Source of the DNA: Halorubrum salinarum
GTDB taxonomy: Archaea > Halobacteriota > Halobacteria > Halobacteriales > Haloferacaceae
Length of the DNA: 64,000 nt
Assembly: GCF_013267195.1 (NCBI RefSeq)
Contig: NZ_CP053941.1
Coordinates: 62,001 to 126,000 of the forward strand
Direction: 5' to 3'
The notes beneath the pieces were generated by a model that had not been told where the DNA came from, ran no database searches, and saw only the letters and a program-made list of their open reading frames with translations. Positions within the stretch are counted from its first letter, which is position 1. Each line of letters begins with the position of its first letter. This document shows, piece by piece, positions 50,598 to 55,421 of this stretch. Made by a program: the position numbers and the translations under genes.

Positions 50598-51191
50598 TCA
50601 GACGGCGGTGAGGAAGTTCCGGATGAGGTCGTGGCCCGACCCGGTCAACACGCTCTCCGGGTGGAACTGGACCGCCTCGATCGGGTGCTCGCGGTGGCAG
50701 ATCCCCATCACGATCGACTCGCCGTCGTGGTCCGTGGTGGCCGTGACGTCGAACGCCTCGGGGACTTCGGTGGCCGCCAGCGAGTGGTAACGGCCGGCGC
50801 GGAATCCCTGGTCGAGCCCGCGGAACACGCCCTCCCCGTCGTGGTCGACGGGGAACGCCTTGCCGTGGACGGGCTCGGGGGCGTGCCCGACGGTCCCGCC
50901 GTACTCGTAGACCGCGGCCTCCAAGCCGAGACAGACGCCGAGCGTCGGCACCGACGGCGAGAGGTCGCGGAGCACCGACATCGTCACGCCCACGTCGCGG
51001 TCGTTCTTCGGGTGGCCGGGCCCCGGACTGATGATCACGGCGTCGGGCTCGGCCGACTCGATCTCGTCGAGCGACGCCGTGTTCTTGAACACGTCGACGG
51101 CGACCGGCTCCCCGCCGATCGTCTGGTCGGAGACGTACTCGACGAGGTTGTAGGTGAACGAGTCGAAGTTGTCGACGACGGCGACCTTCAT
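50598..51191 (-). CDS. trpG: Anthranilate synthase component II (glutamine amidotransferase)
   Basis: 197 residues. Class I amidotransferase: VVDNFDSFTYNLVEY, VIISPGPGHPKNDRDVG, the nucleophile PTLGVCLGLEAAVYEY near residue 85, and IEAVQFHPESVLTGSG with the catalytic His and Glu. It supplies ammonia to TrpE. It is the last gene of trpDFEG, with its ATG overlapping the trpE stop by four bases. It could also serve para-aminobenzoate synthesis, but operon context favours tryptophan. Confidence 0.95.
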   Translation of the reverse strand: MKVAVVDNFDSFTYNLVEYVSDQTIGGEPVAVDVFKNTASLDEIESAEPDAVIISPGPGHPKNDRDVGVTMSVLRDLSPSVPTLGVCLGLEAAVYEYGGTVGHAPEPVHGKAFPVDHDGEGVFRGLDQGFRAGRYHSLAATEVPEAFDVTATTDHDGESIVMGICHREHPIEAVQFHPESVLTGSGHDLIRNFLTAV

Positions 51192-52864
51192 CGCTCGGCC
51201 TCCGTGCCGGTGGCGAGCGGCCCGTCGTCGCCCTCGGCGGGCGCCGCCGAGTCGGCGTCGCCGTCCCGCGCTTCGTCCTCGCGGATGCGGTCGATCGCGG
51301 TCAACACGCCGTCCATCTTCTGTTCGGTCTCCTCGTACTCGGCCGCGGGGTCGGAGTCGGCGACGAGGCCAGCGCCGGCGCGCACGCCGACGACGGACTC
51401 GTCGCCCGACTCGTCGAGCGTCGCGGTCCGGATGACGATCGCGAAGTCCGCGTCGCCGGTCCACGAGTAGTAGCCGACGCCGCCGCCGTACGCCTCCCGC
51501 GGGGTCGTCTCCAGGTCGTCGATGATCTCCATCGCGCGCACCTTCGGCGCGCCGGTGAGCGTCCCGGCCGGGAACGTCGCGCGCGTCGCGTCGAACGCGT
51601 CGGCGTCGGCCGCGAGCGTCCCGGTCACGGTCGACTCGATGTGCTGGACGTGGCTGTACTTCAGCACGTTCATGAACTCCTCGACACGGACGGAGCCCGG
51701 CTCGGAGACGCGCCGCACGTCGTTGCGCGCGAGGTCGACGAGCATCGTGTGCTCGGCGCGCTCCTTGCCGTCCGCGAGCATCTCGCCCGCGAGCCGCCGG
51801 TCCTCGACCGGGCTCGTGCCGCGCGGGCAAGTGCCGGCGATCGGGTTCGAGACGACGCGGTCGCCCTGGACCGACACGAGCGTCTCCGGGCTCGCGCCGA
51901 CGACGGTCCGGTCATCGTGCCGGAGCACGTACATGTACGGCGAGGGGTTCACGTCGCGGAGCGCCGCGTACAGCCCGAGCGAGTCGACCTCGCCGCGGAG
52001 CTCGCGACTGCGCGAGATCACGCCCTGATAGATGTCGCCGTCGAGGACGTGTCGCTTGGCGGTCCGGACGGCCTCCTCGTACTCCTCGCGCGGGTCCGCG
52101 GACTCCTCGCGCACGCGGACCCCGTCCGGGTCGGGCGGCGCGGCCTCGCGCAGTTCGGCCGCGACCCGCTCCGCCTCCGCGACGAGGTCGTCGTAGACGG
52201 CGGCGGGGTCGTCGTCGACGCCGATCACGGGCGTGAACACCAGCTCGGCGCCGCCCTCCTTCTCGTCGAAGACGACGGTCCGGGTCGTGAGCGCGAACTC
52301 GGCGTCGGGGAACTCCGTCTCGGGGCGCTCGACGCCGACCTCCTCCAGCCAGAGGTCGTACACCGCCTCGTACGCGAGGAACCCGACGAACCCGCCCGAG
52401 AGGATCTGCCGATCGGTGTCCGGGAAGCCGCGCAGGCTCACGTCCGGGAACGCCGCGCGGACGCGGTCGACCGCGTCGCCCGCGGCGGGTCCGAGGTCGC
52501 CGTCGGTCGCACCCGCGCCAGCGCCGACGAACTCGGCGGCCGGTCCCAGCTCGGTCACCTCGGTGCGGTCGGGGTGGACCGAGACGATCGCCTCGGGGTC
52601 GTAGCCGACGAACGAGTAGCGGGCGTGCCGGTCCGCCTTCCCGCCCGCGGTGAACGCGCCGTCGGGGTCGCTGGAGGCGACCTTCTCGCCGGACTCCAGC
52701 AGGAAGCCGTACGGCCCCTCGCCGACGAGGGTCGCGTACGCGCCCAGGGGGGGCACGTCGGCGTCGAGCGCGGCCGACGCGCGGACCACGACCGGCCGCT
52801 CGGCGTCGGCCGCGAGGTCGACGAACTCGGCCTTCGTCCGGTTCAGCGGGGGCGCGTCGCTCAT
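51188..52864 (-). CDS. trpE: Anthranilate synthase component I
   Basis: 558 residues. Chorismate-binding domain motifs: GDIYQGVISRSRELRGEVD, NPSPYMYVLRHDD, VSNPIAGTCPRG, AEHTMLVDLARNDVRRV, SHVQHIESTVTGTL and TLTGAPKVRAMEIID. The N-terminal domain has an acidic insertion. The C-terminal acidic tail is haloarchaeal. It converts chorismate to anthranilate with TrpG, and is likely subject to tryptophan feedback. Start overlaps the trpF stop by four bases. Confidence 0.95.
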   Translation of the reverse strand: MSDAPPLNRTKAEFVDLAADAERPVVVRASAALDADVPPLGAYATLVGEGPYGFLLESGEKVASSDPDGAFTAGGKADRHARYSFVGYDPEAIVSVHPDRTEVTELGPAAEFVGAGAGATDGDLGPAAGDAVDRVRAAFPDVSLRGFPDTDRQILSGGFVGFLAYEAVYDLWLEEVGVERPETEFPDAEFALTTRTVVFDEKEGGAELVFTPVIGVDDDPAAVYDDLVAEAERVAAELREAAPPDPDGVRVREESADPREEYEEAVRTAKRHVLDGDIYQGVISRSRELRGEVDSLGLYAALRDVNPSPYMYVLRHDDRTVVGASPETLVSVQGDRVVSNPIAGTCPRGTSPVEDRRLAGEMLADGKERAEHTMLVDLARNDVRRVSEPGSVRVEEFMNVLKYSHVQHIESTVTGTLAADADAFDATRATFPAGTLTGAPKVRAMEIIDDLETTPREAYGGGVGYYSWTGDADFAIVIRTATLDESGDESVVGVRAGAGLVADSDPAAEYEETEQKMDGVLTAIDRIREDEARDGDADSAAPAEGDDGPLATGTEAER

Positions 52865-53505
52865 GCCAGCTCCATCTCCCGGCCCGCGTTCGCGACGAAG
52901 CGGGCGACCGCGTTGTGGTCCTTCCGGCCGCCCTCGATCTCGACGCCCGAGGCGACGTCGACCGCGAAGGGGTCGGCGACGCGGACCGCCTCGGCGACGT
53001 TGTCGGCCGTGAGCCCGCCCGCCAGCACGACCGGGGTCGTGAGCCGGGCGGCGAGGTCGCCGGTCGCGCGCCAGTCGTGCGTCTCGCCCGTCCCGCCCGC
53101 GCCCGAGTCGTCGGTGGAGTCGACGACCAGCGCGTCGACCGCGCCGTCCAGCTCCTCCGCGCGGGCCGGGTCGTCGGCGTCGACCGTGAGCAGCACCTTC
53201 CGCTCCGTCTCCGCGCGGACGTACCGCAGCTCGTCGAGCGTCCACTCGCCGTGGAGCTGGATCGCGTCGGGGGCGACCGTCCGGGCCAGCTCGACCGCGC
53301 GCTCGGCGGAGTCGGGCATCGTCACGAGCGTCGCGGTGACGAACGGGGGCACGGCGGCGAGCAGCTCGGCCGCCGTCGCCGGGTCGACCTCGCGCGGCGA
53401 GTCGACCGGGACCTCCGTGATCACGCCGACCGCGTCGGCGCCCGCGTCGACCGCGGCGCGGAGGTCGGCCTCGTCGGTGAGCCCGCAGATCTTCACCCGG
53501 GCCAT
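52861..53505 (-). CDS. trpF: Phosphoribosylanthranilate isomerase
   Basis: 214 residues. The TIM-barrel motifs VKICGLTDEADLRAAVDAGA, DAIQLHGEWTLDELRYV, VVLAGGLTADNVAEAV and FAVDVASGVEIEGGRKDHN are diagnostic. It performs the Amadori rearrangement after TrpD. The ATG overlaps the trpD stop codon by one base (TGATG), so translation is coupled. Confidence 0.95.
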   Translation of the reverse strand: MARVKICGLTDEADLRAAVDAGADAVGVITEVPVDSPREVDPATAAELLAAVPPFVTATLVTMPDSAERAVELARTVAPDAIQLHGEWTLDELRYVRAETERKVLLTVDADDPARAEELDGAVDALVVDSTDDSGAGGTGETHDWRATGDLAARLTTPVVLAGGLTADNVAEAVRVADPFAVDVASGVEIEGGRKDHNAVARFVANAGREMELA

Positions 53506-54554
53506 CAGTCGTCGTCCTCCGCGGTCGCGCCGAGCCCGCCGTCGACCGGCTCGCCGTCGCCGCAGAGCGCCGCGAACTTCTCGGCGGCCGCGCCGGAGTC
53601 GATCGCCTCGGCCGCCCGCTCGACGCCCGCAGCGAGCGTGTCGGCCTCGCCGGCGACGTAGATCGCCGCGCCCGCGTTCGCCAGGATCAGGTCGCGCTTC
53701 GGGCCCGTGACGGAGCCGTCGACGATCCCGCGCAGGTCCGCCGCGTTCTCCTCCGGACCGCCGCCGGCGACCGCGTCGATCGGGGCCCGGTCGAGCCCGA
53801 GGTCCTCCGGCGCGATGGTGAACTCGGTCACGTCCTCGCCGTCGACCTCGGCGGCGACCGTCTCGTCGTGGATGCCGATCTCGTCCATCCCGGCGCCGTG
53901 GACGACGAGGGCGCGCTCGACGGGCATGTGCGCGAGCGAGCGCGCGATGACGGGCACGAGGTTGGGGTCGTAGACGCCGAGCACCTGCGCGTCGGCGCCC
54001 GCGGGGTTCGTGAGCGGCCCGAGGACGTTGAATATCGTCCGCATGCCGAGCTCCTTCCGGGGGCCGATGACGGCCTTCATCGCCGGGTGGAAGACCGGCG
54101 CGAGCATGAAGCCGATCCCGTCCGCCTCGATCGCCGCCTCGACGGCTGGCGGTTCGGCCTCCACGTCGGCGCCGGCGACCTCCAGCACGTCCGCGCTCCC
54201 CGACGACGAGGAGACGGAGTAGTTGCCGTGCTTCGCGATCGGCACCCCGGCCCCCGCGGCGACGATCGCGGCGGTCGTCGACACGTTGATCGTGTCGTAG
54301 TCGTCGCCACCGGTGCCGCAGGTGTCGACGAGCGGCTCGCGGTCGGGCTCGATCGTGCGCGCCGCGTCGCGCATCCCCTGCGCGAAGCCGGCGATCTCGG
54401 CCTCGGTCTCGCCCTTCGTCCGGAGCGCGGCCAGCAGCGCCCCGATCTGGGCGTCCGTCGCCTCCTCGAAGACCAGCCGCGCGGCCTCGCGCGCCTCGGC
54501 TACGGTCAGATCCTCCCCGTCCGTCACGCGCTCGACCGTGTCGTTGAGATTCAT
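53505..54554 (-). CDS. trpD: Anthranilate phosphoribosyltransferase
   Basis: 349 residues from ATG at 54554. Motifs: LVDTCGTGGDDYDTINVST, PIAKHGNYSVSSSSGSADVL, FMLAPVFHPAMKAVIGPRKE, and FNVLGPLTNPAGADAQVLGV. It transfers phosphoribose from PRPP to anthranilate. It is the first gene of trpDFEG; trpCBA are not in this window. An operator-like palindrome lies between its TATA box and the predicted transcription start. Confidence 0.95.
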   Translation of the reverse strand: MNLNDTVERVTDGEDLTVAEAREAARLVFEEATDAQIGALLAALRTKGETEAEIAGFAQGMRDAARTIEPDREPLVDTCGTGGDDYDTINVSTTAAIVAAGAGVPIAKHGNYSVSSSSGSADVLEVAGADVEAEPPAVEAAIEADGIGFMLAPVFHPAMKAVIGPRKELGMRTIFNVLGPLTNPAGADAQVLGVYDPNLVPVIARSLAHMPVERALVVHGAGMDEIGIHDETVAAEVDGEDVTEFTIAPEDLGLDRAPIDAVAGGGPEENAADLRGIVDGSVTGPKRDLILANAGAAIYVAGEADTLAAGVERAAEAIDSGAAAEKFAALCGDGEPVDGGLGATAEDDD

Positions 54555-54586
54555 TGTGTCCACCGATGTAGTATTCCGCGTTGTGA

Positions 54587-54611
54587 TGTACAAGTATGTA
54601 CACTAATTTAA
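54587..54611 (-). promoter_or_regulatory. trpDFEG promoter with TRP-box-like palindrome
   Basis: Plus-strand TGTACAAGTATGTACA (54587-54602) consists of two TGTACA hexamers four bases apart. The minus-strand TATA element TTAAATTA (54604-54611) directly precedes it. The transcription start is predicted near 54581, giving a leader of about 27 bases with GGTGG before the ATG. A protein on this palindrome would block initiation. TGTACA is, as I recall, the TRP-box consensus bound by the tryptophan-dependent repressor TrpY of Methanothermobacter. Confidence 0.65.
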
Positions 54612-54719
54612 CGCTGTCGCCGTGACGGGAAGCGGTACCACGCGCCGTGAACGCGGAAGAACACGAGGAGAGGCGACCGAGAGCGGAGAAGCGACGCCGA
54701 CGGCAGAGCGGATCAGCCC

Positions 54720-55421
54720 CTACGCCGGGTCGAGCGCCCGCGACCCGTCGGCCTCGACGACGACCACGGGGACCTCGGCGTCGCCGATGACGGTGTCGGT
54801 CGTGGAGCCGAAGACGAAGCGGCCGACGGTCCCGGTGGTCGGCGCGCCGACGACGACGAGGTCGTAGTACGCCGACTGCTCGACGATCGCGCCCGCCGCG
54901 GTCCGGTCCTCGACGAGCCATCTGTCCGCGCGGTCGAACCCGCCGAGCCTGTCCTCGGCCGCGTCGAGGAGCCGCTCGCCGGCCGCCGCGTAGTCGGTGT
55001 CGTCCGCGTCGCTTGCGGCGACGACCGTGCCGGAGGCGTCCTCGTCGGGTCCGGCGTCGGCGAGCGCCGCGTCCGAGGGGACGACGTGGAACAGTTCGAG
55101 CCACGAGTCGGTCTCCGACGCGATTTCCCGCGCCACGTCGACGGTCGCGCCAGAGTGCGGGCCGGGGCCGACGGCGACGAGGACCGAGGAGACCCGGTCG
55201 GGGCGGTCCGCGCGGTCGGCGCCGTTCAGCGACACGTCGGCGGCGGCCAGGACCTCGCCCGCCTCGTCGACCGCGGGCCGGATGACGGGGTCGCCGACCG
55301 CGGGCTCGGCCGCGTGGCCGGCGCCCCCGGTCCCGACCGAACCGCCCGACCCGCCGCGTGCCCCGCCGTTTCGCGTCCCGCCCTCGCGGGCGTTTCCACC
55401 GTCGGCGTCGCTCCTGTCCAT
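54720..55421 (-). CDS. Universal stress protein (UspA family) with Gly-rich extension
   Basis: 233 residues. The Usp domain covers about residues 75-233: VSSVLVAVGPGPHSGATVDV, LELFHVVPSDAA, and the ATP-binding loop VVVGAPTTGTVGRFVFGST followed by EVPVVVVEADG. The N-terminal 75 residues are Gly/Asp-rich and not part of the usual fold. It probably binds ATP. The gene is alone in its unit; the 165 bases between it and trpD hold only the trp promoter. Confidence 0.85.
   Translation of the reverse strand: MDRSDADGGNAREGGTRNGGARGGSGGSVGTGGAGHAAEPAVGDPVIRPAVDEAGEVLAAADVSLNGADRADRPDRVSSVLVAVGPGPHSGATVDVAREIASETDSWLELFHVVPSDAALADAGPDEDASGTVVAASDADDTDYAAAGERLLDAAEDRLGGFDRADRWLVEDRTAAGAIVEQSAYYDLVVVGAPTTGTVGRFVFGSTTDTVIGDAEVPVVVVEADGSRALDPA

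Follow-up and report, generated by a model that had tools for sequence, protein, structure and literature searches.

We identified a conserved array of TGTAC/GTACA half-sites in the promoter of the trpDFEG operon of Halorubrum salinarum and other haloarchaea. We consider it probable that this array is a TRP-box-type operator whose likeliest reader is the genome's TrpY homologue, which would act as a tryptophan-dependent repressor here and also at the separate trpCBA operon. TRP boxes and TrpY are already known from Methanothermobacter. For haloarchaea, a search of the open literature, with subscription papers outside its scope, found no description of TRP boxes or of TrpY function, and a 2019 study stated that it could not estimate what TrpY homologues do in the branches that contain haloarchaea (PMC6737238).

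The array lies in a window of 64,000 nucleotides, C1:62001-126000 of the genome, which is the whole stretch of DNA analysed here. An earlier note on this window had placed two TGTACA hexamers, separated by four bases, between the TATA element and the predicted transcription start of trpDFEG, and both hexamers are indeed exact and found there (54587-54602, with AGTA between them). Read along the minus strand, a BRE-like element (CGACAGCG) and the TATA element (TTAAATTA) are followed by the two hexamers, by a predicted transcription start at the A at 54584, and by the trpD ATG at 54554, an arrangement that suggests a leader of about 30 nucleotides (Table 1). The third half-site, within this leader, is degenerate in this genome. 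The content of the operon, trpD-trpF-trpE-trpG, was confirmed gene by gene with HMMs. The gene 5' of trpD on the same strand (window 54720-55421) is a 233-amino-acid ORF that has no NCBIfam match and resembles universal stress protein.

The same note held that single hexamers may occur by chance inside genes but a spaced pair at a promoter does not, and this distinction is borne out in the window. Its five further TGTACA hexamers all fall inside long ORFs, mostly as GTGTAC, and none of them has a partner at 10 bp. No exact TGTACA-N4-TGTACA pair appeared in 100 dinucleotide shuffles of the window. A whole-genome pattern search found one exact copy of TGTACA-AGTA-TGTACA in the 3.34-Mb genome, at trpD.

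Table 1. Promoter elements, half-sites and genes of the trpDFEG operon, in window coordinates.
Feature	Position	Strand	Evidence
BRE-like element CGACAGCG	54612..54619	-	Sequence; consensus CGACA, positions -6..-2 at 69-93% in 128 promoters
TATA element TTAAATTA	54604..54611	-	Sequence; TTAA columns 84-99% in 128 promoters
Half-site 1 TGTACA, array position 0	54597..54602	-	Exact; at least 5/6 matches in 115/128 trpD promoters
Half-site 2 TGTACA, +10	54587..54592	-	Exact; at least 5/6 matches in 118/128 trpD promoters
Putative initiator, consensus YYRYAA	54581..54586	-	TATA spacing and YYRYAA motif in alignment
Half-site 3 ACTACA (consensus GTACAT), +30, 5' leader	54567..54572	-	TACA core; columns 42-46 at 76-100% in 128 promoters
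Possible Shine-Dalgarno GGTGGA (consensus GGTG)	54559..54564	-	GGTG conserved ahead of start codon; putative role
trpD, first gene of the operon	53505..54554	-	TIGR01245, E 2.7e-123
trpF	52861..53511	-	Phosphoribosylanthranilate isomerase models, E 4.5e-48
trpE	51188..52864	-	TIGR01820, E 2.1e-174
trpG, start approximate	50598..51200	-	NF041322, E 1.6e-105

TrpD orthologues are present in 138 of the 146 genomes of the order. From these genomes we aligned 128 fetched upstream regions of sufficient length, oriented and without gaps, which represent 14 haloarchaeal families. All 128 alignable promoters carry the BRE/TATA region, TGTAC, TTGTACAT, an initiator and GTACAT, with half-sites at 0, +10 and +30 in a 10-bp phase, and their consensus is cCGAcAcgcTTAAgtcgaTGtAC..attTGTaCAttA.AA.aCgAA...GTACAttggtG. 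This 53-nt architecture scores between 30 and 48 of 53 in the 128 promoters, and the maximum among 640 dinucleotide shuffles is 26. By family-weighted information the half-site columns hold 0.8-2.4 bits, most of them above 1.2; no conservation is seen in the flank 40-13 bp 5' of the aligned block, where the mean is 0.09 bits. The same architecture is found in 26 named haloarchaea from 22 genera, for example Haloferax, Natrinema, Halorussus and Natrialba.

The individual half-sites vary among the families. Family f7, to which Natrinema and Natronococcus belong, has a degraded half-site 2 (TTGRNCAT), and half-site 3 matches TGTACA at five or six of its six positions in 77 of the 128 promoters. 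The skipped +20 register carries little signal except in family f9. Two f9 genomes (L155 and L157; G009 and G037) have trpD promoters with all four registers, 0, 10, 20 and 30, and the layout of initiator and leader in these promoters is unlike that of other haloarchaea.

The exact pair is kept in nine of nine genomes of the same genus, yet it occurs in just 21 of the 146 genomes of the order, where it is mainly limited to Halorubrum and a few others and has been lost in most families. Seventeen of the 22 exact pairs in these 146 genomes are at trpD, and a reversed control pattern gave four matches. Since only 21 of 146 genomes contain exact TGTACA-N4-TGTACA, we rejected this pair as the conserved unit. 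What is conserved instead is a set of TGTAC/GTACA half-sites spaced in 10-bp phase, the third of which falls within the 5' leader. The alignment of trpD upstream regions that the earlier note had proposed thus upholds the site, in 128 of 128 promoters, but replaces the exact pair with phased half-sites.

An array is also associated with the second trp operon, trpCBA, whose first gene, trpC, is at C1:2779502 in this genome. Directly 5' of trpC lies TGAACA-GATA-CGTACA-TTAG-TGTATA (C1:2779428-2779453). The trpD pair is the only exact one in the genome, but an equivalent array does exist at trpC. Among 30 trpC loci, 24 contain a GTAC-N6-GTNC-N6-GTAC array in the region from TATA to the start codon at a threshold of at least 13 of 18 for the triple-array score; six of 1500 shuffles reached 13 and none reached 14. 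A fourth register, TGAAC, is weaker and often shares bases with the start codon, and trpC appears to be leaderless. No trpC arrays were found in family f9. The trpC half-sites overlap the TATA box, whereas those of trpD are situated between TATA and the predicted start, and this difference in spacing favours an operator over a core-promoter element.

When 59 genomes were searched for the exact triple site, 12 matches were returned, and coordinate comparison placed all 12 at trpC or trpD; the reversed control returned none. To judge from these searches, the haloarchaeal array appears close to specific for both trp operons. A wider regulon in haloarchaea was rejected, since the search of the 59 genomes gave trpC and trpD alone. 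The sole other triple with two mismatches in this genome, at C1:1259293, is poor in its core and resembles a chance match. Separately, a TGTACA-N4-TGTACA pair is conserved at a TFB gene, just 5' of its TATA region (G000:C1:2825918-2825933, L003, with one mismatch; G044:C7:427694-427709, L422, exact, in H. sodomense), and may be a further target or an unrelated site.

A TrpY-like regulator, for which the earlier note had suggested a search, is encoded in this genome and in nearly all relatives. An ACT-domain screen of the genome found a 166-amino-acid protein (C1:1473047-1473544, minus strand) that matches NCBIfam model NF053754, 'TrpY family transcription regulator', over residues 2-164 of 166 with 230.2 bits (E 1.2e-68), in excess of the curated cut-off of 180 bits. 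Of 295 genomes of the phylum, 280 encode a member of the family, nearly always as a single copy. Two named controls, Haloferax volcanii and Methanosarcina acetivorans, possess a member, and another, Methanocaldococcus jannaschii, lacks one. The protein is 98-99% identical to TrpY of several named Halorubrum species.

An AlphaFold model of this TrpY homologue, made with 39 haloarchaeal sequences (pLDDT 84, pTM 0.57), has helices at residues 13-25, 44-51 and 55-67; these fit a winged helix-turn-helix, with 44-51 and 55-67 as the helix-turn-helix itself. C-terminal to these helices, the model has the beta-alpha-beta-beta-alpha-beta arrangement of an ACT fold, in agreement with a match to Pfam PF01842. 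A Foldseek comparison with the PDB pairs the ACT half with IlvN (E 6e-5) and lists no match for the N-terminal half alone; no sequence relative was found in the PDB. From the model, the protein is predicted to carry an N-terminal helix-turn-helix. Its gene is unlinked to the trp genes (trpY at C1:1473047, trpD at 116554 and trpC at 2779502). None of 28 haloarchaeal trpY upstream regions contains the array, and on this ground we rejected autoregulation of haloarchaeal trpY through the same box.

As in TRP boxes, multiple copies of TGTACA are present, two of them exact here and the others as phased half-sites in the 128 promoters, and they occupy positions in the trp promoters that could block transcription. 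Half-sites one helical turn apart, located from TATA to the predicted start at trpD and across TATA at trpC, have the geometry of a repressor that blocks TBP, TFB and RNA polymerase. The single-copy TrpY-family protein would bind adjacent half-sites as a dimer, on one face of the helix, and its ACT domain would sense tryptophan. When tryptophan is plentiful, the bound regulator would keep TFB and RNA polymerase off the trpD promoter; when tryptophan is scarce, the regulator would be released and trpDFEG expressed. The separate trpCBA operon would be governed by the same protein via the array that overlaps the trpC TATA box. TrpY is, on the evidence of sequence, the putative binder of the trpD array, with tryptophan its presumed ligand and repression the presumed direction of control.

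Published work bears on several parts of this model. Both trp operons of Halobacterium salinarum are induced in the absence of aromatic amino acids (PMC4162585). The trpCBA promoter of H. volcanii was reported as not tightly regulated, according to Large 2007 as cited in PMC13147458, and control may accordingly be modest. In Thermococcus kodakarensis, TrpY neither binds the trp promoter nor acts on trp (PMC6737238), and family membership is therefore insufficient proof of the role.

A genuine trp operator could also be read by a different regulator, most plausibly one of the Lrp/AsnC family, and the main named rival reader is LrpA2 of H. salinarum (OE2776F). Proteins of the Lrp family occupy phased sites as multimers. 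However, the box agrees with TGTACA, reportedly the TRP-box consensus of TrpY, and the array also marks trpB2, which is said to be a TrpY target in Methanothermobacter. LrpA2 is up 14.9-fold without aromatic amino acids and has been put forward as controlling their synthesis (PMC4162585). The array is nevertheless conserved across lineages that have a single-copy TrpY, and overall we regard a reader of the Lrp/AsnC type as unlikely.

Readings that dispense with a specific regulator appear less probable again. The conserved block is in part core promoter and Shine-Dalgarno-like sequence, and it might be mostly an extended core promoter and translation start (BRE, TATA, initiator and Shine-Dalgarno). 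This is quite improbable given that the half-site columns outside the core elements keep the information content reported above, that the phased half-sites of trpC are placed differently relative to TATA, and that exact searches find the array at no other promoters. A trpD leader peptide or RNA attenuator is more improbable still. The predicted start is downstream of half-sites 1 and 2, trpC is seemingly leaderless, and the short ATG frame that runs across the array in some promoters (for example ATGTACGGATTT...) shuts immediately in many species (ATGTACTGA; Haloferax prahovense, Natrinema). We rejected the leader peptide because such frames are not kept among the 26 named haloarchaea. Finally, lone hexamers do occur in genes, but the absence of pairs from shuffled sequence and the concentration of order-wide pairs at trpD leave a chance pair with a negligible probability, and conservation in all 128 promoters excludes it.

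Beyond the order, we located trpD in 32 genomes that belong to the same phylum and scanned regions of up to 14 kb. Arrays are present near trp genes in 15 of the 32, where base shuffles lead one to expect about 0.03 per 14-kb region. They are 46-66 bp before trpD in eight genomes of f19, which is probably Methanosarcinaceae, and in one of f40. One f19 genome and three of f25 have the array before trpC, some 2.8-3.6 kb upstream of trpD, and in one genome each of f27 and f34 it precedes trpE. Seventeen of these 32 TrpY-bearing relatives have no array near trpD in the scanned regions, and none was found near trpD in nine of nine f21 genomes. We suspect that f21 corresponds to Thermococcales, the group in which TrpY reportedly leaves trp uncontrolled (PMC6737238), and its TrpY is among the more diverged (39-40% identical, two aligned).

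Arrays precede trpB2 in two non-haloarchaeal genomes. In f25 (L294-L299; G171, G153) they are also found before genes for a small membrane protein, an ECF-type ATPase, a phenylacetate-CoA ligase and an LctP-type permease, as well as before trpB2. The small membrane protein has no NCBIfam match, and we take it to be a tryptophan uptake component. The distribution of arrays suggests that f25 likely has a wider aromatic regulon.

A circuit either old or transferred had been envisaged at the outset. The equivalent sites at trp genes of non-haloarchaeal relatives tip this clearly towards old, and the circuit looks vertically inherited. We lean towards the view that TrpY and the TRP box constitute the ancestral tryptophan switch of the lineage from which haloarchaea and several related groups descend, which would have been passed on vertically through the splitting of the operon and the unlinking of the regulator, with a wider regulon in some relatives. 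That wider regulon would include trpB2, a candidate tryptophan uptake system and an aromatic-acid CoA ligase. The switch would be among the few archaeal transcription circuits traceable over several orders. The arrays give haloarchaeal TrpY specific, testable targets in trpDFEG and trpCBA, with operator predictions at the level of single bases and tractable hosts such as Haloferax, and they are relevant to trp-based selection and tryptophan-induced expression systems in Haloferax.

The closest known system is that of Methanothermobacter thermautotrophicus, with its trpEGCFBAD operon and trpY. Xie and Reeve are said to have described TGTACA in 2005 as the TRP-box consensus for TrpY. In Methanothermobacter, trpY reportedly adjoins the trp operon in divergent orientation and is autoregulated, and trpB2 is reportedly another TrpY target. 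The likeness consists of several TGTACA copies at a trp promoter and of a TrpY-family protein, and trpB2 is marked in relatives too. Unlike in Methanothermobacter, the haloarchaeal trp genes form two operons, trpCBA and trpDFEG, and trpY is unlinked to them and has a promoter without the array, so that the layout is not the same. The haloarchaeal half-sites are moreover degenerate and in strict 10-bp phase, and TrpY binding is predicted here, whereas the M. thermautotrophicus protein binds TRP boxes and represses (PMC6737238).

Two other archaeal systems invite comparison. LrpA2 and Trh of the haloarchaeon Halobacterium salinarum are likewise tied to the supply of aromatic amino acids through their expression, but they belong to the Lrp family rather than to that of TrpY, and the literature examined gave no binding site for them that matches the array. 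Tar (TK0271), which acts on the aro and trp operons of Thermococcus kodakarensis, is likewise a case of archaeal transcriptional control of trp genes; however, it is a different regulator, and an activator.
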